Shown here in pieces: positions 20,304 through 42,884 of a stretch of DNA of 64,000 bases (positions within the stretch are counted from its first letter, which is position 1; each line of letters begins with the position of its first letter). The position numbers and the translations under genes were made by a program. A model generated the notes under the pieces. That model was not told where the DNA came from. It did not search any database and saw nothing but the letters and a program-made list of their open reading frames with translations. Origin of the DNA: Tsukamurella asaccharolytica (GTDB taxonomy: Bacteria; Actinomycetota; Actinomycetes; Mycobacteriales; Mycobacteriaceae); contig NZ_VIGW01000001.1 in assembly GCF_007858435.1 (NCBI RefSeq), forward strand, positions 596,955-660,954, written 5' to 3'.

Positions 20304-21758
20304 GTGATCGACGTCTCGAACCTTCCCACTGACCTTCTCGTCGGGGGCGAGTGGCGACCGGCACAGGACCGGTTCAGCACCCCCAATCCGGCGACCGGCG
20401 AGGAGCTCATCACGCTGTCGGCGGCGTCGACATCCGACGTCGACGACGCCGTGGACGCCGCGACCGCCGCCTTCCAGGGCGACTGGGGCGCCACCGCCCC
20501 TTCGCAGCGAGGGATACTGCTCCACCGACTGGCCGATCTGGTCGAGCGCGACAGCGAGCAGCTCGCGAGGCTCGAGTCGCTGGACATGGGTCGTCCCCTC
20601 GGCATGAGCTCAGCACTCATGCTTCCGAATTTCATTGCAACACTGCGTTACTACGCAGGGTGGGCCGACAAGATCAACGGTGAGGCGATCGCCACAGACG
20701 GATACCTCGGCGCAGCCGTGCCACAGCACGCCTATACCCGCCGCGAGGCGATGGGAGTGATCGCGGCGATCGTGCCGTGGAACGCTCCACTGATGATCCT
20801 GGGGTGGAAACTGGCCCCGGCGTTGGCCTGTGGCAACGCCATCATCATCAAGCCCGCCGAGGACGCCTCGCTCTCCATCCTGCGACTCGGCGAACTGATC
20901 ACGGAGGCCGGCTTCCCACCCGGCACCGTCAACGTGCTCCCCGGCATCGGGAAGGTGGCCGGTGAGGCGCTCGCACTGCACCCCGGCATCGCGAAGATCT
21001 CGTTCACCGGATCCACCGCCGTCGGCCGCACGATCCTGCAGAACTCCGCGACCAACTTCAAGCGCACTGCGCTCGAGCTCGGCGGAAAGGCTCCGCAGAT
21101 CGTCTTCGGTGACGCCGATCTCGACGCCGCGATCGAAGGTTGCGCCATGGGCATGTTCTTCAACCAGGGGCAGGTATGCGCCGCCGGCACCCGGATCCTC
21201 GCGCATCGCTCGGTGTACGACGCGGTGCTCGACGGCCTCTCAGGTGCGGCCCGCGGGCAGGTGCTCGGCGACCCCTTCGACCCCGAATCCACCATGGGGC
21301 CGCTGGTCAACGCCGCGCAGCGCGACAAGGTGATCGGCCTGGTCCAGCAGGGCCGGGCCGAGGGCGCCGACGTGGTGGCCGGCGGCACGGCCCCGGACCG
21401 CCCTGGATTCTACGTCGAGCCCACCGTACTGGCCGGCACCAACGACATGGTGGTCGCTCGCGAGGAGATCTTCGGACCGGTAGGCCTGGTCACGCCGTTC
21501 GACTCCGACGACGACGCCGTGTCGCTGGCCAACGACAACCAGTACGGCCTGTCTGCCACGGTCTGGACCACCGACCTGTCTCGCGCGCACCGCATCGCGG
21601 CCCGCGTGCACGCCGGCGCGATCGGGGTCAACGGCTGGTCGCCGCTGGCGCCGCAGCTGCCCTGGGGCGGCGTCAAGGCCAGCGGCGTCGGCCGCGAGCT
21701 GGGGTACGAGGGAATCCTCTCGTACACCGAACCCAAGACCGTCACCGTAGTTCTGTAG
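20304..21758 (+). CDS. NAD(P)-dependent aldehyde dehydrogenase
   Basis: The 484-residue ALDH has all catalytic residues: Asn160 (VPWN), Glu258 (LELGGKAP) and the nucleophile Cys292 (NQGQVCAAGTR). The GTG start at 20304 is preceded by AGGAG. It resembles phenylacetaldehyde/betaine-aldehyde-type enzymes that act on aldehydes from amine oxidation. It is the first gene of a run with an APC permease and a flavin amine oxidase. The likely job is to oxidise the aldehyde made by that oxidase to an acid. If the amine is tryptamine, the product is indole-3-acetate, the substrate of the iac genes about 13 kb downstream; that step is inference. Confidence 0.9.
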   Translation: MIDVSNLPTDLLVGGEWRPAQDRFSTPNPATGEELITLSAASTSDVDDAVDAATAAFQGDWGATAPSQRGILLHRLADLVERDSEQLARLESLDMGRPLGMSSALMLPNFIATLRYYAGWADKINGEAIATDGYLGAAVPQHAYTRREAMGVIAAIVPWNAPLMILGWKLAPALACGNAIIIKPAEDASLSILRLGELITEAGFPPGTVNVLPGIGKVAGEALALHPGIAKISFTGSTAVGRTILQNSATNFKRTALELGGKAPQIVFGDADLDAAIEGCAMGMFFNQGQVCAAGTRILAHRSVYDAVLDGLSGAARGQVLGDPFDPESTMGPLVNAAQRDKVIGLVQQGRAEGADVVAGGTAPDRPGFYVEPTVLAGTNDMVVAREEIFGPVGLVTPFDSDDDAVSLANDNQYGLSATVWTTDLSRAHRIAARVHAGAIGVNGWSPLAPQLPWGGVKASGVGRELGYEGILSYTEPKTVTVVL

Positions 21759-21766
21759 GTGTGCAG

Positions 21767-23194
21767 ATGACGGAGGAGGGCCGGTTCGGCAAGGGAACCC
21801 GCACCACAGAGCCCACCGGGGGATCCACCGCACTACGCGGCTCCATCGGAGTCGGCGGGATCGTCTTCCTGGTGATCGCCGGGGCCGCGCCGTTGACCGC
21901 GGTGGCCGGCTCGCTCCCGGTGATGATCGCCACGGGGAACGGGGCGGGCGCCCCGCTCGCGTACATCTGCGCCGCCGTGGTCCTGCTGGTGTTCAGCGTC
22001 GGCTACGCCACCATGAGCGGTGCGGTCACCGACGCCGGCGCCTTCTACGCCTACGTCACCAAGGGGCTGGGGCGCGACCCGGGGCTCGGCGCCGCAGGGG
22101 TGGCGCTACTGGCCTACACCACCATCCAGGCGGCGATCTACGGCCTCGCGGCGAGCACGCTGCGCGACGTGGTGGCGAAGTTCGGCGGGCCTGACCTGCC
22201 CTGGTGGTTGTGGGCGTTCGTGCTGATGGCGCTGGTCGGCGTGCTCGGCTATCGCAGCATCGACCTGGGGGTCAAGGTCCTCGGCGTGCTGTTGGCCGCC
22301 GAGATCGCCCTGATCGTGGCGCTCTCGGCCGCCGTGCTGTTCCGGGGTGGAGCGCACGGCGTGGACACGGTCTCGTTCACGCCCTCGGCCTTCTTCTCCG
22401 GATCTCCCGGGATCGCTCTGATGTTCGCCATCGGCTCGTTCGTCGGCTTCGAGGCCACCGCCCTCTACGGCGAGGAGTCGCGTGACCCGCGGCGCACCGT
22501 CCCGAGGGCCACCTACGTCTCAGTGATCACAGTCGGCGTCCTGTACGCGCTGGCCAGCTGGGCCGTGGTCCTCGCCTTCGGCAGCGACCGGGTGGCCGAC
22601 ACGGCACGCCAGGACGCAGCCGGCCTCACCATCACCGCGGCCACCCGCTTCCTCGGCCCGGTGGCCGCGGACGTGATGCTTGTGATGCTGGTGACCAGCC
22701 TCTTCGCGGCACTTCTTGCCTTTCACAATGCCATCGTCCGCTATCTGTTCGCGCTGTCGCGGTCCGGGCACGCCCCTGCGGCCCTGGCGACCGTGCATCC
22801 GCGGCACAGCTCGCCACACGTCGGCTCATTGGTCCAGACCGCAGGGGCGGCGGTGTTGGTGGGGGCGTTCGCCCTCGCCGGCAGCGACCCGGTGCTCCAG
22901 CTGTTCACCTGGATGGCCGGAGTGTCCATCGTGTCGATCCTGCTGCTGATGGTGCTGACGTCGGTGGCGATCATCGTCTACTTCCGCCGCGACGGCTCCG
23001 ATACCCGGCTCTGGCAGACCCGCATCGCCCCGGTGCTGGGTACTCTCGGCCTGCTCGGCATCACAGCCCTGGTGATCAGCAACTTCACCACCCTGATCGA
23101 TGGCTCGCCCACACTGGCGGGAATCCTCCTCACCCTGATCGCGACCACCTTCCTGGCGGCAATCGCGTACGGACGCCTCACCTCAGATCGTTAG
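21767..23194 (+). CDS. APC family amino acid/amine permease
   Basis: The 475-residue membrane transporter has about 12 hydrophobic helices. The first begins GSIGVGGIVFLVIAGAAPLTAVAGSLP, the glycine-rich TM1 of the APC superfamily, and FVGFEATALYGEESRDPRRTVPRA is the conserved TM6-loop region of the AAT/EAAT-like branch. The ATG at 21767 follows the ALDH stop by 8 bp; a GTG at 21761 is an alternative. Between an ALDH and an amine oxidase it probably imports the amine. Confidence 0.85.
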   Translation: MTEEGRFGKGTRTTEPTGGSTALRGSIGVGGIVFLVIAGAAPLTAVAGSLPVMIATGNGAGAPLAYICAAVVLLVFSVGYATMSGAVTDAGAFYAYVTKGLGRDPGLGAAGVALLAYTTIQAAIYGLAASTLRDVVAKFGGPDLPWWLWAFVLMALVGVLGYRSIDLGVKVLGVLLAAEIALIVALSAAVLFRGGAHGVDTVSFTPSAFFSGSPGIALMFAIGSFVGFEATALYGEESRDPRRTVPRATYVSVITVGVLYALASWAVVLAFGSDRVADTARQDAAGLTITAATRFLGPVAADVMLVMLVTSLFAALLAFHNAIVRYLFALSRSGHAPAALATVHPRHSSPHVGSLVQTAGAAVLVGAFALAGSDPVLQLFTWMAGVSIVSILLLMVLTSVAIIVYFRRDGSDTRLWQTRIAPVLGTLGLLGITALVISNFTTLIDGSPTLAGILLTLIATTFLAAIAYGRLTSDR

Positions 23195-23202
23195 GACAAC
23201 TC

Positions 23203-24576
23203 ATGCCCGATAACACTTCTCACCCCTCCGTCATCGTCGTCGGGGCCGGCTTCGCCGGCCTGACCGCTGCCCGGGAGCTCGAAGGCATCGGTGTGGACGT
23301 GCGGATCTTCGAGGCCCGCGACCGCATCGGCGGCCGGGCATGGACCGCCGAATGCTTGGGCGGACACACTCTCGAGATGGGCGCCACCTGGGTGCACTGG
23401 ATGCAACCCTTCGTCTGGACCGAGATCACGCGGTACAACCAGGGCATCTTCCCGAGTCCCGACATCGACGACGCCTACTGGTACAGCCGCGGTACGGTGC
23501 ATCGGGGTACCGAACATGATCTCGACACCGCCCTGAGCCGGCTGCAGGCGAAGATTCTCGAGGACTCCCGCGAGTTCTTCCCTTTCCCGCACGATCCTAT
23601 GGCCATCCTCAATGACCCGGTCACCGATCCCGACCTGGTCGCCCGCTTTCTGGCGGCGGACGAAGGTAGCGTCCTCGACTGCCTGCGCAACGGCGAATAC
23701 AGCGACGAGGACATCGATCTCGCCGACTCCTACTGGTCCGCCGGCTACCAGGGCAACACCGCCACAGCCTCGCCGCTGATGGCCAAACACTGGGGCGCAC
23801 TCAGCGACCACCGCAGCTCGCTCATGGACGAGCAGACCCTACGGTTCAAGCTCACCAACGGAATGCGCGGGCTGTACCAGGCGATCGCCGACGACGTGCG
23901 CGCCGACATCTCGCTGAACACGCCAGTGCAGCGGATCGTGCACACTGCCGACGGTGCGGAGGTCACGCTCGTGGACGGCACCGTCGAGCGGGCGGATGCG
24001 GTCATCGTGACTGCGCCGATCGGGGCCTTGCAGCACATCGAGTTCCATCCGCCGCTGCCGGAGGAGCAGCAGGAGGTGATCTCGGATGGCACCAACTCAA
24101 CCGGCTTCAAGATCTGGATCAAGGTGGCGGGGCATCGGTCCGTGATCGCCGGCGCCCCCGGTGACAACCCGATCTCGCTACTTCGCAGCGAGAAGATGCT
24201 GAGCGACGAGGACGCCACCATCATGGTGGGCTTCGGATCGAATCACGAGGCCATCGTGCTCGACGACATCGCCTCGGCGCAGCGTGCGCTGGACGTCTGG
24301 GACGCGGACCTGACCGTGCTCGACTGCGGCGGCCACGACTGGGTTGCCGATAAGTGGTCCGGCCAGACCTGGGCGACATTGCGTTCGGGCCAGTTCTTCA
24401 ACGGCTGGAGCAGATTTCACACCACTGACACCCGGCTGCGTTTCGCGGGAGCCGACTACGCGAAGGGCTGGAACGGCGTCGTGGTCGACGGTGCTATCGA
24501 GTCCGGGATCTCAACCGCGCGGATCCTGCTCACCGAGCTCCGCCCCCAGCGCGGGCGGAGCTGGCCAACGGAATAG
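23203..24576 (+). CDS. Flavin monoamine oxidase
   Basis: The 457-residue FAD-dependent amine oxidase has the dinucleotide motif GAGFAGL (14-20), Glu38 for the ribose, and the RIGGRAW motif (41-47). The C-terminal FAD-binding stretch is LRFAGADYAKGWNGVVVDGAIESG. No obvious Cys for covalent flavin is present at the usual C-terminal position, as in most bacterial members. It would convert a primary amine to an aldehyde plus NH3 and H2O2. It is 8 bp from the permease gene and should be in one operon with it. Tryptamine, phenylethylamine and tyramine are all plausible; the adjacent iac locus favours tryptamine. Confidence 0.87.
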   Translation: MPDNTSHPSVIVVGAGFAGLTAARELEGIGVDVRIFEARDRIGGRAWTAECLGGHTLEMGATWVHWMQPFVWTEITRYNQGIFPSPDIDDAYWYSRGTVHRGTEHDLDTALSRLQAKILEDSREFFPFPHDPMAILNDPVTDPDLVARFLAADEGSVLDCLRNGEYSDEDIDLADSYWSAGYQGNTATASPLMAKHWGALSDHRSSLMDEQTLRFKLTNGMRGLYQAIADDVRADISLNTPVQRIVHTADGAEVTLVDGTVERADAVIVTAPIGALQHIEFHPPLPEEQQEVISDGTNSTGFKIWIKVAGHRSVIAGAPGDNPISLLRSEKMLSDEDATIMVGFGSNHEAIVLDDIASAQRALDVWDADLTVLDCGGHDWVADKWSGQTWATLRSGQFFNGWSRFHTTDTRLRFAGADYAKGWNGVVVDGAIESGISTARILLTELRPQRGRSWPTE

Positions 24577-24679: not shown

Positions 24680-25876
24680 TCAGTCGAGCCGTTCGAAGAT
24701 CGCGGCGATGCCCTGCCCGCCACCGATGCACATAGTCTCTAGGAGGTAGCGGCCTTCCCGGCGCTGCAGCTCACACACACCAGTGGCAAGGATACGAGCA
24801 CCGGTGGCGCCCACGGGGTGTCCGAGGGAGATCCCGGAGCCGTTGGGGTTGAGCCGCGGATCATCAACCGGCAGGCCCCATTCCGCGAGAACGGCCAGCG
24901 TCTGGGCGGCAAAGGCCTCATTGAGTTCGATCACGTCCATGTCGGTCAGGGTCAGACCGGCCCGCGCGAGCGCACTGGCGGTCGCAGGAACGGGTCCGAT
25001 GCCCATCTCCTCGGGTGCGACGCCGGCGACAGCCCAAGAGACGAGGCGGGCGACAGGCCGCAGGCCGCGGCGCTGCGCCGCGCTAGTCGAGGCGACGAGC
25101 GCCGCAGCCGCGCCGTCGTTCTGCCCGCTCGCGTTCCCGGCGGTGACGGTGGCCTCGGGATCGACGGCCCGTCGCAGCGGTGTCAGGGTGCCGAGCTTCG
25201 CGCGGTCGACGTTCGGCCGTGGATGCTCGTCGGTGTCCACCAGCCCGCCGCCGGTGGCGACGGGGACGATCTCGGCGGAGAACCGACCCTCTCGTTGGGC
25301 CGCCACAGCCTTGCGGTGCGAGGCGAAGGCCAGGTCGTCCTGCGCCTCGCGGGAGATCCCGTAGCGGCGCCGCAGATTCTCGGCGGTCTCGATCATCCCA
25401 CCCGGCACGCGGTGCCGGTGCCCGCCGGCTGTGACGCGCGCGCGGGCGAGGCGGTCGAGAGATTCGCCGGGCGGTGCATCCTTCTCCCAACGGGGCGTGA
25501 GGGTGTAGAACTCGGACCTGCTCATTGATTCGACGCCGCCGGCGATCGCGATCTCCGCTCCGCCCGTGGCGATCTGGCCGGACGCCGCGATCACGGCCTG
25601 GAGGCCGGACCCGCACCGGCGGTCAACCTGCTGCCCCGGGACGCCGATGCCGAGACCCGCGTCGAGCGCCGCAATGCGGCCGATCGCGGGCGCCTCGCCG
25701 TTGGGACCGGCCTGCCCGAGTACGACGTCGTCGATCACCTCGGGATCGACACTCGTCCGCGAAATCAGCTCGCGGATCACGCCGGCAGCCAGGGTCTCCG
25801 GCGGGACCTCGCGGAGCGCGCCGGTGAACCGCGCGACGGGGGTGCGGAGCACCGCGCAGAGGACGATGTCGGTCAT
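24680..25876 (-). CDS. pcaF: 3-oxoadipyl-CoA thiolase
   Basis: The 398-residue thiolase has the acylated Cys88 (RRCGSGLQAV), the second catalytic Cys in MCIGGGQG near the C-terminus, and the His motif SLGHPVGATGAR. It cleaves 3-oxoadipyl-CoA to succinyl-CoA and acetyl-CoA, the last step of the 3-oxoadipate pathway. It is the last gene of the minus-strand cat/pca operon. A generic acetyl-CoA acetyltransferase is the alternative, but the operon context decides for PcaF. Confidence 0.88.
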   Translation of the reverse strand: MTDIVLCAVLRTPVARFTGALREVPPETLAAGVIRELISRTSVDPEVIDDVVLGQAGPNGEAPAIGRIAALDAGLGIGVPGQQVDRRCGSGLQAVIAASGQIATGGAEIAIAGGVESMSRSEFYTLTPRWEKDAPPGESLDRLARARVTAGGHRHRVPGGMIETAENLRRRYGISREAQDDLAFASHRKAVAAQREGRFSAEIVPVATGGGLVDTDEHPRPNVDRAKLGTLTPLRRAVDPEATVTAGNASGQNDGAAAALVASTSAAQRRGLRPVARLVSWAVAGVAPEEMGIGPVPATASALARAGLTLTDMDVIELNEAFAAQTLAVLAEWGLPVDDPRLNPNGSGISLGHPVGATGARILATGVCELQRREGRYLLETMCIGGGQGIAAIFERLD

Positions 25877-25883
25877 GGTGCGT

Positions 25884-26699
25884 TCAGGACCTTTCGGGAG
25901 AGAGGAAGGGGAGCAGGACCGCGTCGAATCGGTCCGGCGTCTCGAGGCTCGGCGTGTGGCCGGCGCCGCCGATCACGTGCGGATCGCCAGCGCCCAGGGC
26001 CTCGGCCAGGCCGACCCCCAGGACGCCCCGATCGAAGGCGTCCTCCGCGCCCACAACGACCGCGGCGGGGCGGGTGAAACGCTCCGCGACGACGGTCAGA
26101 TCCCGGCGGTCCGCGCGCCCCCGGAGAGCCGCGGCGGCACCCGCGGCGGGCGCCGCGGCGATCATGGCGCGCGCCGACGCACACGCCTCGGGGCGCGAAG
26201 CGACGGAGGTCGGCCCGAGGACGACGGGGAGGAACTCCTCGCCGTACGCGGCGGTGCCCTCGGCCTCCAGCCGGTCGGCGAGGGCATGCCGCCCCTTCCG
26301 AACCTCGTCAGTGTCGAGCCAGGCGAACGTGTCACTGAGCAGCATGCGGGTCAGCCGGGGCCCGGCCACGTCGGCGAGCTCGAGGGCGACCTGTCCGCCC
26401 ATCGAGTAACCGACCGCGGCGAAGGTGCGCGCGCCGAGCGCGTCGAGAACGTCCAGAGCGGCCTGCGCGTGGTGCTCGAGGGGGATCGTGCGGCCCACCG
26501 GTGCAGTGTCGCCGAACCCCAGGAGGTCGACCGCCACGGCGCGGTATCCCGCAGCGGCGAGCGAGCGCAGCTGCGGCTCCCACATCCGCCGGGAGAACAG
26601 GAACCCGTGCAGCAACACGACCGTGGGCGCCTGATCGCCGTCGGAAGCCGTGGAGGCACCGACGGGACCGTGCCGGGTGGCGACGATCGGATCAGCCAC
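25884..26699 (-). CDS. pcaD: 3-oxoadipate enol-lactonase, alpha/beta hydrolase
   Basis: The 271-residue alpha/beta hydrolase has the oxyanion segment LLHGFLFSRRMW, the nucleophile elbow GYSMGG (Ser99), an Asp in VVGAEDAFD and the catalytic His in GAGHTPSLE. In this operon it should hydrolyse 3-oxoadipate enol-lactone, the product of muconolactone isomerase. It is not fused to a CMD (PcaC) domain, as fits the catechol rather than the protocatechuate branch. Its ATG overlaps the end of the CoA-transferase beta gene by 8 bp. Confidence 0.82.
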   Translation of the reverse strand: MADPIVATRHGPVGASTASDGDQAPTVVLLHGFLFSRRMWEPQLRSLAAAGYRAVAVDLLGFGDTAPVGRTIPLEHHAQAALDVLDALGARTFAAVGYSMGGQVALELADVAGPRLTRMLLSDTFAWLDTDEVRKGRHALADRLEAEGTAAYGEEFLPVVLGPTSVASRPEACASARAMIAAAPAAGAAAALRGRADRRDLTVVAERFTRPAAVVVGAEDAFDRGVLGVGLAEALGAGDPHVIGGAGHTPSLETPDRFDAVLLPFLSPERS

Positions 26700-27351
26700 G
26701 CGTGAGCCTCGCGAGCAGTTCCCGGGCCGGCACGCCGAAGGTCTCGGCGATCACGGCCCCCGCAGGGCCGCACTCGATGATCGCCTCCGGCGTGTACACC
26801 CGGTTCACACAGCCGACGCCGGTGAGCGGGTAGGTGCAGGACGGGACCAGCTTGGGGCTGCCATCCTTCGCGAACAACGTCATCATCACCAGGACTTGCC
26901 GGGCGCCGGTGGCCAGATCCATGGCGCCGCCAACAGCAGGGATGGAGCCGGGTGCGCCGGTGCTCCAGTTGGCGAGATCGCCGCCGTACGAGACCTGGAA
27001 TGCGCCCATTACCGCGTAGTCCAGATGACCTCCGCGCATCATTGCGAACGAATCGGCGTGGTGGAAGTACGCGGCACCGGGGAGCTCAGTCACGGGCACC
27101 TTGCCCGCGTTGGTGAGGTCCAGGTCGATATCGTCGCCTTCGGCCGCGGGCCCCATGCCGAGCATGCCGTTCTCCGTGTGCAACACCACACCACGCGCGG
27201 GGTCGAGGTGGTCCGCGACCGTGGTGGGCTGCCCGATGCCCAGATTGACGAAAGAGCCGGCGGGAATGTCTGCGGCGACCCGCGCCGCCAACGCAGCCTT
27301 ACCCATCGGATCGGTGTGCTCGATGACATCGTCGGCCACCGCGGCGGTCAT
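26692..27351 (-). CDS. pcaJ: 3-oxoadipate CoA-transferase subunit B
   Basis: The 219-residue beta subunit has the catalytic Glu60 in LHTENGMLGMGP and the family ending AGAVIAETFGVPARELL. It pairs with the subunit encoded just upstream to move CoA from succinyl-CoA to 3-oxoadipate. The two genes overlap by 4 bp (ATGA), as expected for a stoichiometric heterodimer. SCOT-type 3-oxoacid transferases are close relatives; the operon supports the 3-oxoadipate role. Confidence 0.88.
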   Translation of the reverse strand: MTAAVADDVIEHTDPMGKAALAARVAADIPAGSFVNLGIGQPTTVADHLDPARGVVLHTENGMLGMGPAAEGDDIDLDLTNAGKVPVTELPGAAYFHHADSFAMMRGGHLDYAVMGAFQVSYGGDLANWSTGAPGSIPAVGGAMDLATGARQVLVMMTLFAKDGSPKLVPSCTYPLTGVGCVNRVYTPEAIIECGPAGAVIAETFGVPARELLARLTRG

Positions 27352-28040
27352 CGTGCGCCCGCCACGGCCAGGCGGCGTGCGGGCACCGCGACGATCCGGT
27401 CGGGGTAGATGCCCGGAGTGATGACACTCTCGGGATCCAGACCGCCTACCTCGACGATCTCCTCGACCTGGACCGCGACAAGCTCGGCTGCCGTTGCCAT
27501 TACAGGACCGAAGTTCCGAGCCGTTTTGCGGTACACCAGGTTCCCCGCCTGATCTGCCCGATGCGCGGCGATGAGCGCGAGGTCGGCACGGATGGGGAGC
27601 TCGAGGACGTAGGTGCGCCCATCGAGCTCACGCACCTCCTTCCCCGCGGCGAGCGGCGTTCCGACTGCCGTGGGACAGTAGAAGCCCCCGATGCCCGCGC
27701 CAGCGGCGCGGATCCGTTCGGCGAGGGTGCCCTGCGGCACCACCTCGAGCTCGATCTCGCCCGCCGCGTACAAGCCGTCGAAGACCCACGAATCGGACTG
27801 CCGGGGAAACGAGCAGATCATCTTGCGCACGCGCCGTGCCGCGAGCAGCGCCGCCAGCCCCTGGTCGCCGTTGCCGGCGTTGTTGCTCACCACCGTGAGG
27901 TCGGTCGCTCCGTTGTCGATCAACGCCTCGATCAGGTCGAAGGGCATGCCCGCGAGACCGAAACCGCCCACCAGAATCGTGGCGCCGTCGGCCACCCCCG
28001 CGACGGCCTCCGCCGGGGTGCCCACGATCCGGCTGGTCAC
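27348..28040 (-). CDS. pcaI: 3-oxoadipate CoA-transferase subunit A
   Basis: The 230-residue alpha subunit shows the typical GATILVGGFGLAGMPFDLIEAL, VSNNAGNGDQGLAALL and NFGPVMATAAELV segments. The GTG start at 28040 overlaps the stop of catC (GTGA); longer in-frame starts run into catC. The tight 4-bp couplings on both sides show it is translated within the catBAC-pca transcript. Confidence 0.88.
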   Translation of the reverse strand: MTSRIVGTPAEAVAGVADGATILVGGFGLAGMPFDLIEALIDNGATDLTVVSNNAGNGDQGLAALLAARRVRKMICSFPRQSDSWVFDGLYAAGEIELEVVPQGTLAERIRAAGAGIGGFYCPTAVGTPLAAGKEVRELDGRTYVLELPIRADLALIAAHRADQAGNLVYRKTARNFGPVMATAAELVAVQVEEIVEVGGLDPESVITPGIYPDRIVAVPARRLAVAGAR

Positions 28041-28339
28041 GACTCGCCGCCGTCGGCGAGCGCAACATCCGAGGGGTGCGTCGCCAGCGGCGTCACCTCC
28101 ACGGTCATCCACTGGAACAGAGGTAGGCCCCAGAGGATCTCGTGCAGACGTTCGTTGTCGGCCACGTCGAAGACCGAAATGTTCGAGTACTGGCCGACGA
28201 TCCGCCAGATGTACGGCCACTCGCCGCCGCGTTGCAGCTCTTGGCTGTACGCCTTCTCCCGCGCGATCGTCTCCGCTCGCAGCTCGGGATCGATGTCATC
28301 CGGGATCGCGACGTCCATCCGGACGGCGTACAAAGGCAT
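28037..28339 (-). CDS. catC: Muconolactone delta-isomerase
   Basis: The 100-residue protein has the CatC N-terminus PLYAVRMDVAIPDD. The Glu-Lys-Ala segment with REKAYSQELQRGGEWPYIWRIVGQYSNISVFDV and LHEILWGLPLF are also as in decameric muconolactone isomerases (usually about 92-100 residues). It moves the double bond of muconolactone to give the 3-oxoadipate enol-lactone. Its ATG overlaps the catA stop (TGATG). Confidence 0.93.
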   Translation of the reverse strand: MPLYAVRMDVAIPDDIDPELRAETIAREKAYSQELQRGGEWPYIWRIVGQYSNISVFDVADNERLHEILWGLPLFQWMTVEVTPLATHPSDVALADGGES

Positions 28340-29193: not shown

Positions 29194-29251
29194 GATGTTC
29201 TCCTTGCTCTGCGGGCTGATGTTTCCTGAATGAAGGGTGGGTGGGCCGCCG

Positions 29252-33660: not shown

Positions 33661-33700
33661 CCAGCCCCGCGGACAGTCCACACAGGAATCGGAGATGCCC

Positions 33701-34873: not shown

Positions 34874-34909
34874 GCCTCAGCCCTTCCGTACCGACGAGAG
34901 AGAGATCCC

Positions 34910-35266
34910 GTGTCACCACTTCGAACCCTGTTCTGTTTCGGAAACAACCAGAACTTCTTCGACCTGCCGAAAGCCGATATCGGCCCCGTGTGGGTCGGTG
35001 TCTCGACGATGCTCACGAACCTCAAGAACATGGACGGGGTCGAGGTGATCGGCACCTTCGACGACGACGCGCACATGGTCGGCCCCTCCGACGGCTGGCC
35101 CTGGACCTGCTACGTGCTCGCGGACGTCCGCGACCAGGAGACTGTGCGCGATGTATGTAATCTTCTGCGCACCACCATGATCGGAGAATACGCCTTGTGG
35201 CGCTACCTCAAGGTGGAGGCGCGGATGGGGCGCGAGCTCACCATCCGTGACGACGTCGAAGTCTGA
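34910..35266 (+). CDS. iacB: Small conserved protein of the iac operon, IacB type
   Basis: The 118-residue protein starts at a GTG after a GAGAGAGAG ribosome site. The sequence (RTLFCFGNNQNFFDLPKADIGPVWVGVSTML, then ALWRYLKVEARMGRELTIRDD) suggests a ferredoxin-like alpha/beta barrel of the EthD/dimeric type, but no catalytic residues stand out. It lies exactly where iacB lies in known clusters, between the IacA-like monooxygenase and the Rieske oxygenase. Its function is unproven, though IacB is thought to act in the later steps towards catechol. Confidence 0.7.
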   Translation: MSPLRTLFCFGNNQNFFDLPKADIGPVWVGVSTMLTNLKNMDGVEVIGTFDDDAHMVGPSDGWPWTCYVLADVRDQETVRDVCNLLRTTMIGEYALWRYLKVEARMGRELTIRDDVEV

Positions 35267-35295
35267 GGATCGAGAAGCGTAAGGAGAGTAGGCCA

Positions 35296-36606
35296 ATGAC
35301 CAGCACCGAGAAGCGCGAGGCTTCGGCGTACGCCGACCTGGTCCAGGAGGACCGCGTCGCAGGACAGCTGTACACCGATCCCGAGATCTACGCCGAGGAG
35401 TTGCGCCGGATCTTCGACCGCACCTGGGTGTGGGTGGCGCACGAGAGCGAGATCCCCGAGTCGGGCTCGTTCAAGACGACGTGGGTCGGTGACCAGCCGG
35501 TCATCGTGAGCAGGGACCGCAAAGGGCAGTTCCACACGCTGCTCAACCGCTGTCGGCACCGCGGCGCCACCGTGTGCGACCAGCGCAGCGGCAAGGCGAA
35601 CGGGTTCACTTGCCCGTACCACAACTGGTCGTACGCACTCGACGGCCGGCTGCGCGGCATTCCGTACCCCGACGGCTACGAGGGCGTGGTGGACAAGAAG
35701 GACTACCCGCTCAAGTCGCTGCGGACCGAGAGCTTCCTGGGGATGATCTGGGCGACGTTCAATCACGACGCCGAGCCCCTCACCGACTTTCTCGGCGATG
35801 CGAAGATCTGGATGGAACGTTTCCTCAAGCAGTCCAACGGCTTCCCGACCAAGGTGATCGGGACTCACAAGTTCCGGTTCAACGGCAACTGGAAGATCCA
35901 GCTCGAGAACACCACCGACGGCTACCACTTCCCAATGGTGCACAAGTCGTGGATGACCTCGGTCGACGCGGAGACGGCGAACATGATGTCGTTCATGGAC
36001 GATCCCGAGGCCGTGACCCACGCCCTCGGCAACGGGCACAGCGTCGCCATCATGGCGGCGGCCCACGCCGACCTCGATGTGGACGACGGCGAAGAGGAGG
36101 TACAGCCGCGATTCCAGCATCTCGTGGACGAGCTGGAGGCCGCCGGAGAGGAGCCCGCTCGGATCCGGCGATACATGCGGTCCATGCACGGTAGTGGCTT
36201 CAACCTCAACATGTTCCCGAACATCGCCATGTCGTCCTCGTTCTTCCGGGTGTTGATCCCGATCGACGTGAACGTAACCGAGGTCTGGCACATGGCGATC
36301 GGCATGGACGGTGGCCCCGAGTCGATCAACCAGGAGCGCCTGCGGATCCACGAGCACTTCCAGGGTCCGTTCGGATTCGGCAGCCCCGACGACGCCGAGG
36401 GCTGGGACCGCGTCCAGATCGGTGCCGGCGGCGATCCGCGAATGCCGATCCTGGTCAACCGCGGCGAAGGACGCGAGAAGCCTTCGGACGAGGGCTGGCC
36501 CACGTCGCACGTCACCGACGAGACCGGGATGCGCGAGTCGTACGCGATGTGGAAGCGAATGATGGAACAGCCGCTGCCGGCTGCGGACGGAGGCGAGAAG
36601 CGATGA
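35296..36606 (+). CDS. iacC: Rieske non-haem iron oxygenase alpha subunit, IacC
   Basis: The 436-residue ring-hydroxylating oxygenase has the Rieske [2Fe-2S] ligands Cys86-x-His88 (CRHRG) and Cys106-x-x-His109 (CPYHNW). The catalytic domain has the bridging Asp208 and iron ligands His211 and His216 (ENTTDGYHFPMVHKSW). In the iac pathway the IacC/IacD oxygenase with IacF acts on an oxindole intermediate. AGGAGA precedes the ATG. The gene overlaps iacD by 4 bp. Confidence 0.88.
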   Translation: MTSTEKREASAYADLVQEDRVAGQLYTDPEIYAEELRRIFDRTWVWVAHESEIPESGSFKTTWVGDQPVIVSRDRKGQFHTLLNRCRHRGATVCDQRSGKANGFTCPYHNWSYALDGRLRGIPYPDGYEGVVDKKDYPLKSLRTESFLGMIWATFNHDAEPLTDFLGDAKIWMERFLKQSNGFPTKVIGTHKFRFNGNWKIQLENTTDGYHFPMVHKSWMTSVDAETANMMSFMDDPEAVTHALGNGHSVAIMAAAHADLDVDDGEEEVQPRFQHLVDELEAAGEEPARIRRYMRSMHGSGFNLNMFPNIAMSSSFFRVLIPIDVNVTEVWHMAIGMDGGPESINQERLRIHEHFQGPFGFGSPDDAEGWDRVQIGAGGDPRMPILVNRGEGREKPSDEGWPTSHVTDETGMRESYAMWKRMMEQPLPAADGGEKR

Positions 36607-37094
36607 GCGACCTGATGTTCGCAGACCCGCGAGTGCTCCGGGCGATCGAGCTGGCCTGGCACGAGGCGAAACTCCTCGACGACAAGAACTACGAGGCGTG
36701 GCAGGAGCTATTCACCGATGAGGGGCTCTACATCGTCCCGATCGATCCCGAGACGGATGACTTCGCCGGAACGTTGAACATGATCTACGACGACAAGCGG
36801 ATGCGCGCGCTGCGTGTCCAGCGGATGATCCAGGGATACTCACCGGCCGCGGTGGCCGCTGCGCGGACCGCGCGCATCGTCTCCCGGTTCTCTGTCACGT
36901 CCGTGGACGACCATCGGGTGGTGCTCCGCGGAGCACAGCTCCTCAGCGCCTTCAAGCGGAACGAGTTCATCACGATCGGCGCGGACGTGGAATACATCAT
37001 CGCCCTGCGCTCCCATGGTGACCGGATCGAACGCAAGGTGGTCCGCCTGCTCGACAGCGAGGACGCGACGCGCGCCTCCGGGTATCTGGTGTAG
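36603..37094 (+). CDS. iacD: Ring-hydroxylating oxygenase beta subunit, IacD
   Basis: The 163-residue NTF2-like small subunit begins at the ATG overlapping the iacC stop (ATGA). The conserved pattern AIELAWHEAKLLDDKNYEAWQELFTDEGLYIVPI and the closing beta sheet match oxygenase beta subunits. It supports the alpha3beta3 hexamer and is not catalytic. The coupled start fits equal production with IacC. Confidence 0.85.
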   Translation: MSDLMFADPRVLRAIELAWHEAKLLDDKNYEAWQELFTDEGLYIVPIDPETDDFAGTLNMIYDDKRMRALRVQRMIQGYSPAAVAAARTARIVSRFSVTSVDDHRVVLRGAQLLSAFKRNEFITIGADVEYIIALRSHGDRIERKVVRLLDSEDATRASGYLV

Positions 37095-37102
37095 GGGAGA
37101 CG

Positions 37103-37861
37103 ATGACTGACGAGAACACCGTCTCGGGGATCGCCGTGGTCACCGGTGCCGCCGGCGGCATGGGAGAGCGCATCGTTCGACGGCTGCACGCCGGCAACCA
37201 CCGGGTCCTGGTGACGGACATCGACCAGGCCGCCGCGGAAGGTCTGGCTGCGGAGCTCGACCCATCTGGCGCAACGGCCCGCGGGTTCCGACTCGACGTG
37301 TCCGAGAGGGCCGGGTTCGAGAACGCGCTCGCGGAGACTCGACGGCACTGGGGCACCCCCACTGTGCTGGTCAACAATGCCGCGGTCACCCAGGCCGCCG
37401 ATCTGATGACCCTTCCGCAGGATGCCTTCGAGCGGGTGCTCACCACGAACGTGAACAGCGTCTTCTTCGGGTGCCAGGTGATCGGCGGCGCAATGGCGGA
37501 CAAGGGCTACGGGCGGATTGTGAACATGGCCTCCCTCGCAGGCCAGAACGGCGGCACTGCGACCGGCGGCCACTACGCCGCCTCCAAGGGCGCGATCTTG
37601 ACGGTGACCAAGATCTTCGCCCGTGAACTCGCCGCCCGCGGGGTCACTGTGAACGCGATATCGCCCGGCCCGCACGATCTTCCGATCGTGCATCGAACAG
37701 TCCCGGCGGAGAAGCTGGACGACGTGATCGCGGGGATCCCCGTCGCACAGCTGGGGGATCCGGGCTTCGTCGCGAAGATGGTCGAGTTGCTGGCAGCCCC
37801 CGACGCGGGCTTCGTGACCGGCGCCTGTTGGGACGTCAACGGGGGCTTGTACGCGCGGTGA
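37103..37861 (+). CDS. iacE: Short-chain dehydrogenase/reductase, IacE
   Basis: The 252-residue classical SDR has the cofactor motif VTGAAGGMG, NNAA (VLVNNAAVTQAAD), a Ser in VNMASLAGQNGG, and catalytic Tyr-x-x-x-Lys in HYAASKGAI. The C-terminus is DVNGGLYAR. In the iac pathway IacE acts with IacA in forming the oxindole intermediate. It begins 8 bp after iacD, with GGGGAGA as ribosome site. Confidence 0.83.
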   Translation: MTDENTVSGIAVVTGAAGGMGERIVRRLHAGNHRVLVTDIDQAAAEGLAAELDPSGATARGFRLDVSERAGFENALAETRRHWGTPTVLVNNAAVTQAADLMTLPQDAFERVLTTNVNSVFFGCQVIGGAMADKGYGRIVNMASLAGQNGGTATGGHYAASKGAILTVTKIFARELAARGVTVNAISPGPHDLPIVHRTVPAEKLDDVIAGIPVAQLGDPGFVAKMVELLAAPDAGFVTGACWDVNGGLYAR

Positions 37862-37945
37862 CAGCGCGCACCGCCCGCTCCCGAGTCCTCCGGGGGGCGA
37901 GCGGATCGAACGCAAATATCCAACCCTCAGCTCCAGGAGTACGCC

Positions 37946-38893
37946 ATGACTTTGATCGACGTCACCGTCGCCGAGATCGTTGAAGAGACCCCGACGATCA
38001 AGTCCTTCCGACTGGTGCGATCCGACGGGACTCCGCTGGGGTCCTACATCCCGGGCGCCCACATCGACGTGGTCGGGCCGACGTCGATCACGCGTCAGTA
38101 CTCGCTGTGCAGCACCCCCGAGGCGCCGGATTCCTTCACGGTGGCCGTCAAACGTGAGGACGATTCGCGGGGCGGCTCCTCCGCTCTGCACGAGCTGAGG
38201 GTGGGTGACAGGCTCCAGATCAGTGAGCCGCGTAACGTTCTCCGCATCGAGGACGACGCCGCGTACCACATTCTCATCGCGGCGGGGATCGGGATCACCC
38301 CGATGCTGAGCATGGCCCGGTACATGGACGTGCACGACATCCCGTTCGAACTTCACTATTTCGCCCGCACGGCAGAGCAGGCGGCCTTCCTGCCCTTGCT
38401 GCAGGAGCGGTGCCCGGAGAAGCTGCACGCGAACCTGGGGATCAGCCGAGACGCGCAGGACACCGCGCTCGCCGCCCTCGTAGCGGCAGCCCCGAGAGGC
38501 TCGCACATCTACATGTGCGGCCCCGATGGCTTCATGGACAAGGTCATGGCCGCGGCGGAGAAGTGGTTTCCCGCGACCGCGATCCACTCCGAACGGTTCC
38601 ATGCTGCCGAGGTCGACGACTCCGACAACCGCGAGTTCGAGGTCGAGCTCGAGGGCGAGGTATACACCGTGCCGGCCGATCGCAGCATTGTGGAGGTGCT
38701 GCAGGAGAACGGCTGCGACGTCGACACCTCCTGCCAGGAGGGCATCTGCGGAACCTGCATCATGCAGGTCCTCTCCGGAACACCGGAGCACCGCGACAAC
38801 GTTCTCACAGCGTCCGAGAAGGACGCCGGTGAGACCATCGCGGTGTGCGTGTCGCGGACCAAGTCCGACCGAATCGTTCTCGACTACTACTGA
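37946..38893 (+). CDS. iacF: Oxygenase reductase (FMN, NADH, plant-type [2Fe-2S]), IacF
   Basis: The 315-residue phthalate dioxygenase reductase/VanB-type protein has an FMN-binding RQYSL motif (50-54), an NADH domain (AAGIGITPM at 112-120; YMCGPDGFM), and a C-terminal ferredoxin with Cys263, Cys268, Cys271 and Cys301. It passes electrons from NADH to the Rieske centre of IacC. It follows iacE after 84 bp and closes the iacABCDEF run. Confidence 0.88.
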   Translation: MTLIDVTVAEIVEETPTIKSFRLVRSDGTPLGSYIPGAHIDVVGPTSITRQYSLCSTPEAPDSFTVAVKREDDSRGGSSALHELRVGDRLQISEPRNVLRIEDDAAYHILIAAGIGITPMLSMARYMDVHDIPFELHYFARTAEQAAFLPLLQERCPEKLHANLGISRDAQDTALAALVAAAPRGSHIYMCGPDGFMDKVMAAAEKWFPATAIHSERFHAAEVDDSDNREFEVELEGEVYTVPADRSIVEVLQENGCDVDTSCQEGICGTCIMQVLSGTPEHRDNVLTASEKDAGETIAVCVSRTKSDRIVLDYY

Positions 38894-38970: not shown

Positions 38971-39627
38971 CTACTCTTCGACGTTATCGCCGGGTATCAC
39001 GACGTCGAATCGAAGGATATCCCGGACCAACGTGCTGATGGACTCCGCTTCCGTCTTCGCCTTGATCCGCGCGCGGTGCACATCGACCGTCTTGACACTC
39101 ATCTCGAGACGCCGTGCGATGTTCTGGCTCGGCAGCCCTTCGACGACCAGCGCGAGGATCTCCCGCTCGCGGCGCGTCAGCAGCGCGACCCGCCGCTGTA
39201 CCGCCCGCTGGCTGGAGAACTCCGTGAAACTCTCCGCGGCCTTCTGCATTCCGGACTGGACCGTATCCAATAACCGCTGCGGGTCGTACGGCTTCTCGAG
39301 GAAGTCGATAGCGCCCGCCTGCAGGACGGATACCGACATCCGGATATCGCCGTGCGCGGAGACGAAGATGATTGCCGCGTGCGGGGCGATGTCGTTGAGA
39401 GTCTCCTGCAGCCGCGTCCCGCTCGTCTTCGGCATCCGCACGTCCAGCACAATGCAAGCCGGGGTCGTGCCGTCGTACTGCTCCAACAACTCGTCGGCGC
39501 TGTGGCAGATGACGGGCCGGATGCCGATGCTGCCGAGGAGCCAGTCGACCGAATCGCACAGCGCGGGGTCGTCGTCCACGACGTAGACCGTGACGTCCGT
39601 GGCGTTCGCAGGTTCGGAGGGGATCAT
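38971..39627 (-). CDS. FixJ/NarL-like response regulator
   Basis: The 218-residue response regulator has a receiver domain with acidic pocket VVDDDP (about 16-21), phospho-acceptor Asp62 (IVLDVRMPKTSG), the conserved VSAHGD and Lys in EKPYDPQ. The LuxR-type helix-turn-helix is LTRREREILALVVEGLPSQNIARRLEMSVKTVDVHRARI. The ATG at 39627 overlaps the stop of the preceding gene. It is the obvious partner of the FixL-like kinase at the other end of iacA-F, giving a two-component system around the operon. The signal, perhaps indole-3-acetate, is inferred. Confidence 0.82.
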   Translation of the reverse strand: MIPSEPANATDVTVYVVDDDPALCDSVDWLLGSIGIRPVICHSADELLEQYDGTTPACIVLDVRMPKTSGTRLQETLNDIAPHAAIIFVSAHGDIRMSVSVLQAGAIDFLEKPYDPQRLLDTVQSGMQKAAESFTEFSSQRAVQRRVALLTRREREILALVVEGLPSQNIARRLEMSVKTVDVHRARIKAKTEAESISTLVRDILRFDVVIPGDNVEE

Positions 39628-39926
39628 CGCGCGCCTGTCGCCGACGCGTCTTCCCACCCCGCGTCGGCCGTCCAGTAATCCTGGCCGGCCGCGCTCACGC
39701 AATGAGTCCAATCCGATAGCCGCCGCAATTGCGGCTCCTCCCGGCGAACCGACTCGTCCGCCGCATCCGGCCCATCGGCCTCGACGGTCCAATGGACCCA
39801 GTTCACTTCGCGGCCGTGACGGTCGTGAACGAAGAGATCAACATGGTGCCATCCGTAGTTGAACGTGTCCTCGTAGCAGGTGAGGAACATGCGATGATGT
39901 TCGATCGGTCGCGGTGTGAGCAACAT
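39624..39926 (-). CDS. Conserved small protein of unknown function in the iacH transcript
   Basis: The 100-residue product starts at an ATG with AAAGGA nine bases upstream. It lies 46 bp after iacH and overlaps the response regulator by 4 bp. It is rich in aromatic and charged residues (FNYGWHHVDLFVHDRHGREVNWVHW, then SDWTHCVSAAGQDYWTADAGWED) with no motif I recognise. Coupling to iacH and to the regulator suggests a role in indole-acetate use or its sensing. I cannot assign a function. Confidence 0.6.
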   Translation of the reverse strand: MLLTPRPIEHHRMFLTCYEDTFNYGWHHVDLFVHDRHGREVNWVHWTVEADGPDAADESVRREEPQLRRLSDWTHCVSAAGQDYWTADAGWEDASATGAR

Positions 39927-39972: not shown

Positions 39973-41319
39973 TCAGACGACGGTCGATCCGAGTCGCTGC
40001 TCGAGGGCCCGGGCAACGGCGAAGATCGCGCCCTCGCCGCCCCCGACCCCGATCACCTGCAATCCGAGCGGCATACCGTCGTCTGTGCGCGCCCCGGGCA
40101 CGGTGATCACTGGGCATCCGAGGAGTTGCCAGGCGCGGCTCAACACGGGGGAACCCGTGGCCCCGAGCCCCTTCGGTGCGGGCCCAAGCGCCGCGGGGCC
40201 GACTATCACCGCGTGGTCGCCGAGCGAGTCCGCGACCATCGTCCGCGACCGGTCCCGCCGGACCAGAGCCGCTCGATACGAGTCCGTCGACACCCCCGCT
40301 CCGGTGCGGAGCAGTTCCAGCAGAGATGTGCTCAACCGATCCGCGTGATCCCGGGCCTCCGCGGCGCGCGTCCGGGATGCCTCGTAGGCCATCACGGCCA
40401 CCTGATCGTCCGTCAGGGTTCGGATGTGGTCGTCCCGCTGCAGAGCCGTGGTGGTGACTCCCACCTCACCGAGCACCACAGGCAGCGTGTCGAGCAGATG
40501 ACGCATGTGGGCCGACAAGGTGTCGAGCGAACTTCCGGACCAGAGACGTACCTCCACGCCCGCGACGGCGGGGACGGCGAGCGGCTTGCCCGTGAAGGCT
40601 TCGTACACGTACTGAAGGTCGGTGATCGTTCTCGTCAGGAGTCCGAGGGAGTCCAGCGAAGGGCTCAAGCCGGTGATCCCTGAGGTATCCGTGCTCCCGT
40701 GGGCCAGAACCATTGCCGCCGCACCGCAGAACGACGCCGGGCGCGTCAACGACCCCGCGGTCTGCGTCCCCAGCGCGAAGGGAAGGGTGCCCGAACCGAC
40801 CGCGGCCGCCGAGCCGCTCGACGACCCACCCGGGGTGTGGTCGACGGCGTGGGGGTTGCGGGTGGCCCCCGGGCGGAAGTAGCCGAACTCGGTGGTCACC
40901 GTCTTCCCTTGGATCACCGCACCGAGAGTGCGCAGGCGATCGACGCACGGGGCATCAAGGGCGGCCGGCTCGTCCGATGTGATGTCTGATCCCGCACGCG
41001 TTGGCATCCCGGCGACGTCGATCAGGTCCTTGACGCCCACCGAGAGCCCGGCGAGCGGCAAAGAGTCGCCAGCGTCGGAAATACGGCGGTCGACTTCGCG
41101 CGCATCAGTCTCGATCGCGGGCGAAAACCCTACCCACGCACGGAGTTCCACCTCCCTGTCCTCGATCAGGGTGCGCACGGCGCCCGCCGAATCCTGGGCC
41201 GAAACGATGCGTGAGCGGACGGCGTTGACCTGCGCCCGGACCGAGCGGCTGTGCACGGGTCGCGCGATGGGGTTGGGCTGCGGACTGGTCACCCCTCCAA
41301 GTCTTACCCGATGTGACAT
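39973..41319 (-). CDS. iacH: Amidase-signature family hydrolase, IacH type
   Basis: The protein is about 448 residues with the amidase-signature triad: Lys in VGVKDLID, cis-Ser in GGSSSGSAAAV, and the nucleophile Ser in GTQTAGSLTRPASFCG. An amidase-like IacH is a standard member of iac clusters, where it is thought to act late in the conversion to catechol. The start is uncertain: the ATG at 41319 has no ribosome site, and a GTG nine codons later follows GGAGG too closely. It is divergent from the MFS gene. Confidence 0.8.
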   Translation of the reverse strand: MSHRVRLGGVTSPQPNPIARPVHSRSVRAQVNAVRSRIVSAQDSAGAVRTLIEDREVELRAWVGFSPAIETDAREVDRRISDAGDSLPLAGLSVGVKDLIDVAGMPTRAGSDITSDEPAALDAPCVDRLRTLGAVIQGKTVTTEFGYFRPGATRNPHAVDHTPGGSSSGSAAAVGSGTLPFALGTQTAGSLTRPASFCGAAAMVLAHGSTDTSGITGLSPSLDSLGLLTRTITDLQYVYEAFTGKPLAVPAVAGVEVRLWSGSSLDTLSAHMRHLLDTLPVVLGEVGVTTTALQRDDHIRTLTDDQVAVMAYEASRTRAAEARDHADRLSTSLLELLRTGAGVSTDSYRAALVRRDRSRTMVADSLGDHAVIVGPAALGPAPKGLGATGSPVLSRAWQLLGCPVITVPGARTDDGMPLGLQVIGVGGGEGAIFAVARALEQRLGSTVV

Positions 41320-41456
41320 GGATTACCAGTAAGGGTTTCCCTCCTATCTCGTTAAGTGATCCCGGTCATATTTTGGTGCCATCGGCTCTCCACAGAGACG
41401 ATCGGCGCAGCTCCAGCCCAGCGGCGCCGTTTCCACCCGGAAGGCCCGCAGAAATC

Positions 41457-42884
41457 ATGAGTCAATCCGTCACGTCCACACCCGCATTCTCGAGATTGTC
41501 GCCGACAACCGGTACCCGGTCCGCCTGGGTCGTGGTCGCGATGCTGGTGTTGTTTCAGGTCATCGCCTTCGCGGACAAGGCAGTCCTCGGACTCGTGGCG
41601 TCGCGCGCCATCCCGGACCTCGGAATCACCTCCGTCGAGTTCGGTTTCATCGGGAGCGCATTCTTCTTTCTCTACTCGATCGTGTCGATCCTCACCGGCA
41701 TGATCGCGACACGTGTTGCCGTGAGCTGGGTACTCCTGACACTCGGACTGATCTGGGCCGTCCTGCAGTTCCCCATGCTGCTCGGCGGCGGCGCCGCCGT
41801 TCTGCTCGTGACGCGCATCGTGCTCGGCGGCGCCGAAGGGCCGGCCACCGCGATGTCACTGACCTCGGCCCACTCGTGGTTCGCCCCGAACCGCCGCGCG
41901 CTCCCGTCGAACCTGGTGGCTGCCGGCTCCGCGCTGGGACCCGTCATAGCGGCACCACTCCTGACAGTGGTCATCGTGGCCTGGGGATGGCGCTGGGCGT
42001 TCGGCGTCCTCGGCATCGTGGGCCTGGTGTGGACCATCGGCTGGTTCCTGCTCGGCGGCGACGGCCCCTTCGGGCAGAAGCGCGCGCCGCGACACGGAAG
42101 CGAAGCCGATGTCGCCGGCGCTGCTGCGCCTTCCTCCGAAGCCGGCGGCGGGGACACGATCGACACTCAGCGACCAGTACCCACGCTCCGCATCTTCCTG
42201 AGCCTGACATTTCTAGCGGCGGTCATCGGCGGCGGCTCGAACTTCTTCGTGCAGGGTTTCCTCACCACCTGGCTGCCGCAGTACCTCGGCACCGTGATCG
42301 GACTCAGCACCGAGGCCGTCGGCATCGTCACCGTCGCCCCGTGGGTCGTCGGCGCGGCGCTGTTGGTGGGCCTCGGTGCCCTCGGGCAGCGCCTGATGGC
42401 GCGCGGCGCCACCGCACACACCGCCATCGCGGTGCCATTCGGGATCGCAGCACTCTTCGCCGGCACGGCGTTCCTCCTCGTCCCCGCGACCGCGGGTCCC
42501 GTCGCTGTGGCGTTCCTCTCGGCCGCAGCCGGGTGCAGCATCGTCTACCCGATGGTCGCCTCGGCACTGGCCTACGCCGTTGGCGCGCGGCAGCGGCCGT
42601 TGGTCCTGGCGACCCTGGGAGGAATCGCCTCGGTGGGCGCGGTCATCTCGCCGACTTTGGTCGGCTGGCTCATGGACCGAGCCGGATACACCGCGCCTCC
42701 CAAGGGCAGCGCACCGTCGTCCGCAATGGCGGAGGCGATGGCCACGGGAGTGAACCAGGCATTCACTCTCACCGGCGTTCTACTCATCCTCGGCGGAGCG
42801 CTCTGCATCGCCTTCCTCCGGCCCGAACGGTTCGGGGCGAAACTGCAGGCGCTCACCGAACCCAGGACCGAAACGAAGGAGTGA
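41457..42884 (+). CDS. MFS transporter, probable aromatic acid/auxin uptake
   Basis: The 475-residue major facilitator has about 12 transmembrane segments. The start at 41457 (MSQSVTST...) places TM1 at WVVVAMLVLFQVIAFADKAVLGLV; the D-K pair in TM1 is typical of the anion:cation symporter branch. A hydrophilic Gly/Ala/Glu-rich loop separates the two halves. It lies between iacH and iacG, so uptake of indole-3-acetate is the likely job. An upstream in-frame start at 41313 is rejected. Confidence 0.8.
   Translation: MSQSVTSTPAFSRLSPTTGTRSAWVVVAMLVLFQVIAFADKAVLGLVASRAIPDLGITSVEFGFIGSAFFFLYSIVSILTGMIATRVAVSWVLLTLGLIWAVLQFPMLLGGGAAVLLVTRIVLGGAEGPATAMSLTSAHSWFAPNRRALPSNLVAAGSALGPVIAAPLLTVVIVAWGWRWAFGVLGIVGLVWTIGWFLLGGDGPFGQKRAPRHGSEADVAGAAAPSSEAGGGDTIDTQRPVPTLRIFLSLTFLAAVIGGGSNFFVQGFLTTWLPQYLGTVIGLSTEAVGIVTVAPWVVGAALLVGLGALGQRLMARGATAHTAIAVPFGIAALFAGTAFLLVPATAGPVAVAFLSAAAGCSIVYPMVASALAYAVGARQRPLVLATLGGIASVGAVISPTLVGWLMDRAGYTAPPKGSAPSSAMAEAMATGVNQAFTLTGVLLILGGALCIAFLRPERFGAKLQALTEPRTETKE

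Follow-up and report, generated by a model that had tools for sequence, protein, structure and literature searches.

What can be learned from the gene neighbourhood of an iac locus about the compounds that it serves? In a 64,000-nucleotide stretch of the Tsukamurella asaccharolytica genome (contig NZ_VIGW01000001.1; this whole stretch is called the window in the following), an amine module, a cat/pca operon predicted to serve the ortho cleavage of catechol and an iac locus predicted to convert indole-3-acetate stand side by side. We consider it likely that an expanded iac regulon has the amine module as its upper pathway, with tryptamine as the most probable entry amine; the substrate, the pairing of operator box and regulator, and the flux are what we infer from the genes. 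With less assurance, although still slightly in its favour, we extend this reading to a mobile and rearrangeable regulon, carried by actinobacteria of the Mycobacteriales type, that would mineralize tryptamine via auxin and catechol, in which the entry oxidase is exchangeable (flavin or copper) and amine and auxin stages alike are under the control of an iac two-component system, with iac standing here in the place of ben beside a native cat operon. Tryptamine is a common amine of plants, food and the gut. The conserved upper module, linked to iac through its position, its co-occurrence and the operator predicted for both, would provide a testable account of tryptamine use by actinobacteria.

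The tie between the amine and iac genes exceeds mere position. A search for the flavin amine oxidase of the window in 301 genomes of the family (E 1e-80) yielded matches in 20, of which 13 reach the ortholog cut-off of at least 70% identity and seven lie at 39-57%. IacC, searched at 1e-60 in an equal number of family genomes drawn alike, has matches in 52 genomes, 37 of them with one or more at or above the cut-off of 66% identity; the IacC of the window is 66-86% identical to that of 36 other genomes. All 13 oxidase genomes fall within these 37 (Fisher 1.7e-13, an optimistic value, as related genomes are treated as independent). The oxidase and iacC are at most 12 kb apart in eight of the 13 (G000, G211, G079, G249, G092, G129, G274 and G059; genomes and fetched loci carry our own labels), and in G202 each lies near a contig end, splitting the locus. 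Among 24 named loci fetched by IacA, the oxidase is within the stretch in eight (L003, L005, L006, L008, L010, L012, L022 and L024), which come from Gordonia, Williamsia, Mycobacterium and Mycolicibacterium; the two samples seem to overlap, L010, L011 and L022 apparently corresponding to contigs of G059, G202 and G211. A wider search of 394 genomes of the class at E 1e-120 found the oxidase only in the window and in one other genome (G002). The order of the amine and iac genes varies between lineages, which we count in favour of the tie. This includes a plasmid of Rhodococcus sp. YL-1, where an APC permease of a different subfamily, the oxidase, a TetR gene, iac, a GMC oxidoreductase and an aldehyde dehydrogenase (ALDH) are flanked on both sides by insertion-sequence transposases. 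A search of plasmids for the permease of the window at 1e-120 yielded nothing.

Common control of the two gene sets is suggested by a predicted operator. The iacA promoters have a near-palindrome in common (alignment A1), and from 13 iacA and 12 iacH promoters of other loci we derived a palindromic matrix of 18 bases, with the window, G274 and all amine promoters left out of the training. In 14 of 17 iac loci outside the training set, an iacA or iacH promoter took first or second rank within the stretch. Across the window and 18 loci, the box reached at least 12 bits in 18 of 31 amine-operon gaps and in 2 of 121 other gaps, one of the latter two lying upstream of the permease-to-oxidase run on the YL-1 plasmid, and the median difference between amine and other gaps was matched by none of 300 permuted matrices. 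Boxes at amine promoters include those of G269, G040 and G106, genomes in which the amine and iac genes are unlinked. An earlier form of the test, which took sites wholly inside gaps and applied no operon logic, gave 11/30 against 8/141 at 10 bits (Mann-Whitney 1.8e-4); the final form, with operon heads and a 20-base overlap, was adopted after sites at gene ends proved to be lost, and as this design was chosen after seeing the weaker first version, and the loci are interrelated, its P values are optimistic. A site predicted to be common to iac and amine promoters, as a single regulon would have, was thereby found, with a modest score at the amine promoter of the window (11.0 bits). It may be bound by the FixJ-like response regulator encoded within the locus, whose reading frame is intact, unlike that of the sensor kinase. 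The cat promoter of the window is without the box, scoring 0.9 bits with the iacA motif and falling outside the 40 best window hits; in G079, catBAC stands in the same run as iacG, downstream of a 24.6-bit box. Two other candidates for the common signal were rejected: the GGAAATCCCGATACC element of iacA promoters exceeds 10 bits at iacA/kinase promoters but, among amine promoters, only in L003 and L006, whose ALDH and iacA have a common intergenic region, and a TetR operator marks the amine promoters of relatives, but the window has neither gene nor site.

A further line of evidence comes from a genus (g24) in which the oxidase itself is different. Every one of the ten g24 genomes with an IacC of at least 66% identity has an orthologue of the permease (67-70%) no further than 13 kb from iacC, and in one of these genomes, G145, the gene adjoining the permease encodes a copper primary-amine oxidase (NF008559, 880.5 bits, cut-off 651). 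By similarity, this copper oxidase stands beside permease and iac in 10/10 (L058, L086-L095), together with an ALDH that is 59-64% identical in nine and 37% in one. That an unrelated copper oxidase takes the place of the flavin oxidase in the same surroundings argues for an amine step ahead of indole-3-acetate, and the permease orthologues adjoin iac alongside either type of oxidase. In these same loci, an amidohydrolase also stands with the copper oxidase and permease beside iac. According to the accessible part of one report, whole E. coli cells carrying the IacA of Caballeronia glathei did not oxidize tryptamine (PMC7225977), so that a step removing the amine should come first.

In the route that we propose, the permease would take up an arylethylamine, most likely tryptamine, which the flavin amine oxidase would convert to indole-3-acetaldehyde, ammonia and hydrogen peroxide; the dehydrogenase, which resembles StyD, would oxidize the aldehyde to indole-3-acetate. 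IacA/G, IacE and IacC/D/F would then lead from indole-3-acetate to catechol, with B, H and I taking part in undefined roles, and CatA, B, C and D, PcaIJ and the thiolase from catechol to succinyl-CoA and acetyl-CoA. The pair of sensor kinase and response regulator would activate the iac and amine promoters through the one palindromic box, catR would serve the cat operon, and damage to two genes may have left the system of the host weaker.

The arrangement in the window agrees with the original prediction in its main features. Gene calls made with our own caller and profile searches against NCBIfam and Pfam bear out that the oxidase, ALDH and permease flank a complete catechol branch that is itself beside iac; the iac locus, which had been taken to end at 41457, runs to 44096 with the inclusion of the MFS and iacG genes. 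Of the continuous route from tryptamine to the tricarboxylic acid (TCA) cycle that had been envisaged, all three stages are present, but they are made up of several transcription units on both strands rather than one operon: the amine genes (20304-24576, plus strand) converge tail-to-tail on the cat operon (24680-31272, minus strand), with the iac locus beyond. Co-transcription of amine and cat genes was rejected for this reason, their strands being opposite and their ends convergent. The conserved linkage elsewhere that had been named as a check is present for the amine and iac genes, by way of co-occurrence, linkage, the predicted shared box and the oxidase replacement.

The catechol set is complete (CatA, CatB, CatC, enol-lactonase, CoA-transferase and thiolase), leading via 3-oxoadipate to TCA intermediates, and its catA is the sole copy in the host genome (4.12 Mb in 81 contigs) at E 1e-40. 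The operon is collinear with that of a congener (G158) over 6,726 bp at 78.9% nucleotide identity (window 24690-31349). A catA match is present in 8 of 16 genomes of the genus, and benA exceeds its cut-off in four of the 16, adjoining catR in all four; benA is absent from the window, where iac occupies that place beside catR. The only other congener with iac among the 16 (G168) carries its cat genes on another contig. The cat operon looks native, with iac in the place of ben and the amine module on the opposite side, an order of events that we infer.

The individual genes are listed in the table. The ALDH, which scores 713.9 bits with the StyD-Rhodo model NF045736 and so fails to reach its cut-off of 800, is related to StyD without being assigned to it, and is the proposed indole-3-acetaldehyde dehydrogenase. 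The permease may carry an arylethylamine, an aromatic amino acid or an arylacetate. The proposed tryptamine oxidase has a full Amino_oxidase domain, and its GxGxxG motif for binding flavin adenine dinucleotide reads GAGFAG at residue 14. The iac gene set comprises IacA, C, D, E, F, G, H and I together, and family matches locate homologues of all of these in the locus, which is classed as iac-type by this gene content, not as a proven working pathway. From family matches, Rieske, SDR and ferredoxin motifs and a gene order that matches many other loci, iacA to iacF probably carry out the steps from indole-3-acetate to catechol; iacB, named by position, encodes a 118-residue protein without family match that is 53-91% identical in other iac loci. 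A Pfam search of the small protein between regulator and iacH gave no match.

Predicted genes and sites of the amine, cat/pca and iac regions (window coordinates)
Feature	Position	Strand	Basis and remarks
Predicted IacR-type box AGTAAAGGTTCCCGCAGC, ALDH promoter	20144-20161		11.0 bits; second intergenic hit, fourth overall in the window
Aldehyde dehydrogenase, phenylacetaldehyde-dehydrogenase (StyD)-like	20304-21758	+	PF00171; FNQGQVC and ELGGK present
APC-family permease	21767-23194	+	PF00324/PF13520
Flavin monoamine oxidase	23203-24576	+	PF01593, 207.5 bits, residues 17-442
Thiolase	24680-25876	-	Model score over cut-off
catD-like enol-lactonase	25884-26699	-	Score under cut-off; placed by operon membership
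pcaJ	26692-27351	-	Over cut-off
pcaI	27348-28040	-	Over cut-off
catC	28037-28339	-	Over cut-off
catA	28339-29193	-	TIGR02438, 480.5 against cut-off 404.4
catB	29252-30373	-	Score under cut-off; placed by operon membership
catR, LysR regulator	30370-31272	-	Family search
iacI-like SnoaL-fold protein	31468-32025	+	PF13577; divergent from catR; 70-79% identical copies in several iac loci
FixL-like sensor kinase (IacS-like)	31992-33506	-	PAS, HATPase, HisKA (slightly under cut-off); in-frame TAG 33312-33314
Predicted IacR-type box, kinase/iacA promoter	33580-33597		9.6 bits; third intergenic hit; conserved in alignment A1
iacA, iacB, iacC, iacD, iacE, iacF	33695-38893	+	Starts 33695, 34910, 35296, 36603, 37103, 37946
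FixJ-like response regulator (IacR-like)	38971-39627	-	Response_reg and GerE; NF006900 176.7 bits, cut-off 255
Small conserved protein between regulator and iacH	39624-39926	-	57-83% identical in most iac loci mapped
iacH amidase	39973-41292	-	PF01425
Predicted IacR-type box, iacH/MFS gap	41328-41345		21.0 bits, top of 63,983 window positions
MFS transporter	41532-42884	+	PF07690
iacG flavin reductase	42888-43388	+	NF045630 132 bits, cut-off 230; in-frame TAA 43386-43388
iacG detached C-terminal part	43434-44096	+	Separated from reductase part by the TAA

Some related loci carry further genes. A GMC oxidoreductase lies just upstream of ALDH in three oxidase loci (L030:15922-17451, L026:16125-17624 and L065:28143-29639) and might there feed tryptophol into the same aldehyde step. 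Luciferase-like monooxygenases stand directly before the amine oxidase on the YL-1 plasmid (L065:16172-18206) and in G274 (L036:17867-19890). A second, more divergent iac-like cluster was seen in G281 and G211 (L055 and L056), with iacC at 67-68% and iacA at 42-46% identity. Further along the window, 57193-62944 is a possible defence island, with weak matches to a DNA-phosphorothioation restriction-like protein (31.4 bits) and a BREX PglX-like protein (34.6 bits), both far under cut-off, alongside a tRNA-Leu (62861-62944) and a G+C content lowered to about 0.61-0.63.

Several observations weigh against an amine module that belongs to an iac regulon, in addition to those taken up with the alternatives below. 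The oxidase is more than 200 kb from iacC in G269, G040 and G143, and on another contig in G106. Away from iac, the copper oxidase and the permease also stand together in all eight further loci fetched, out of ten such permease places known, and in G274, the only one looked at for it, paaA lies nearby; the permease is missing at the flavin oxidase loci G059, L003, L005, L006 and L008 and from the YL-1 plasmid stretch. As it is found with the copper oxidase off iac and is missing from some oxidase loci, the permease is neither specific to tryptamine nor constant. The regulatory evidence has its own gaps: the box at the ALDH promoter of the window is outranked by two hits inside genes, and a third such hit outranks the box at its iacA promoter; 13 of the 31 amine gaps stay below 12 bits, no amine promoter of G129, G202a, G274 or L005 reaches 8, and in the g24 copper-oxidase modules the box is mostly weak and nowhere clear.

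How narrow is the oxidase? It is possible, though less likely than not, that the enzyme is broad for aromatic amines and that the module funnels tryptamine, phenylethylamine and others, the linkage to iac being one of several uses. The E. coli oxidase is broad, as stated in the accessible text (PMC4640556), and a GMC oxidoreductase, luciferase-like monooxygenases and a second APC permease accompany some oxidase loci; in the family sample, however, the orthologues at 70% co-occur only with iac. In mechanism, a broad oxidase is compatible with an upper pathway of the iac regulon, breadth being the sole difference.

A second possibility, to which we give comparable but limited credence, is that the locus is decaying in the host genome and that the working route has been lost there, whatever relatives do. 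In-frame stops break both the sensor kinase (TAG, residue 65) and the IacG fusion (TAA, residue 167). Each was compared with 13 related loci, none of which has a stop at the respective site; the IacG fusion is uninterrupted in 13/13, and of the kinases compared, those of L003, L008 and L010 are only about 40% identical and that of L011 has its single stop at the far end, at position 495. In addition, 16 of 18 oxidase loci carry an amine-linked TetR for which the host genome offers no close counterpart (best 30%). As a consequence of the two stops, the host's own route may be impaired. However, errors in a draft assembly could also account for them, all other reading frames of the iac, cat and amine genes are uninterrupted, and the reductase domain and the catalytic part of the kinase are still open as separate frames.

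We regard it as improbable that phenylethylamine or tyramine is instead the amine handled by the module, which would then supply routes for phenylacetate or 4-hydroxyphenylacetate encoded elsewhere in the genome, its proximity to cat and iac being incidental. The ALDH is nearest to phenylacetaldehyde dehydrogenase models, and tynA-feaB-paa of E. coli works in this way with an oxidase that, in the accessible account, also accepts tryptamine (PMC4640556). Moreover, five of the 13 oxidase genomes, the host among them, have a paaA above cut-off, so that in the host phenylethylamine is also possible, a further point against tryptamine as the entry amine. In the other eight, however, oxidase and iac are kept while no paaA exceeds the cut-off, which favours tryptamine over phenylethylamine; the oxidase tracks iac in 13/13, and the predicted iac box stands at amine promoters. 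HpaD is over its cut-off, a threshold passed in 3 of 14 control genomes, in none of the 13 (homogentisate routes lie outside this search), although, again to the detriment of our reading, weaker HpaD-like matches occur throughout the 13 (best 201 bits, cut-off 321). Production of auxin by the tryptamine route of indole-3-acetate synthesis, in place of catabolism, has identical chemistry and was proposed for Pseudomonas putida W619, as far as the accessible text goes (PMC3056050), but is very unlikely here, as auxin would then arise right next to the genes for its destruction and, it appears, under their predicted box.

How does the locus compare with what has been described? The original prediction knew of no described locus holding all three stages together. 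The full layout, with amine module, iac and catA within about 30 kb, is indeed uncommon, yet it is neither unique nor the rule: it was found in 3 of the 13 oxidase genomes (the window, G079 and G274) and on a Mycolicibacterium plasmid contig (L006), and two further loci (L008 and L024) have pcaIJ and catR in the stretch, but not catA. An open-access literature search, with subscription papers mostly outside it, returned no amine-iac locus named in titles or abstract openings. The tie between amine and iac genes suggests that iac serves amines besides auxin, and that auxin degraders should be screened for growth on amines.

The solved structures nearest to the oxidase, over almost its whole length, are those of the 8EEF series (best E 1.8e-142), which we take to be the Corynebacterium ammoniagenes enzyme of Muellers et al. 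2023; by contrast with the iac-linked enzymes, oxidase homologues of the genus g3 at 51-57% lie in genomes without an IacC match at the cut-off used. The adjacency of iac and cat alone is already published: in the available text, cat genes are close to iac in Pseudomonas putida 1290, Acinetobacter baumannii ATCC 19606 and Enterobacter soli LF7 (PMC11676955; PMC7225977). Like these proteobacterial clusters, the window has the genes from indole-3-acetate to catechol with cat nearby, to which, in a comparison by description rather than sequence, it adds the amine oxidase, ALDH, permease and FixL/FixJ-like pair. Two-component regulation is likewise known from iac-like operons of Paraburkholderia phytofirmans PsJN and four Pseudomonas strains (PMC11630574), which share with the window a LuxR-type regulator and an IacS kinase; the kinase of the window is interrupted, however, and a box common with an amine module is not described in the accessible part of that work. 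Finally, as in tynA-feaB-paa of E. coli, where an amine oxidase and an aldehyde dehydrogenase feed an arylacetate pathway, the window pairs these two enzymes ahead of such a pathway, but while the E. coli system, as given in the accessible text (PMC4640556), has a copper oxidase and leads to phenylacetate, that of the window has a flavin oxidase and would lead to indole-3-acetate.

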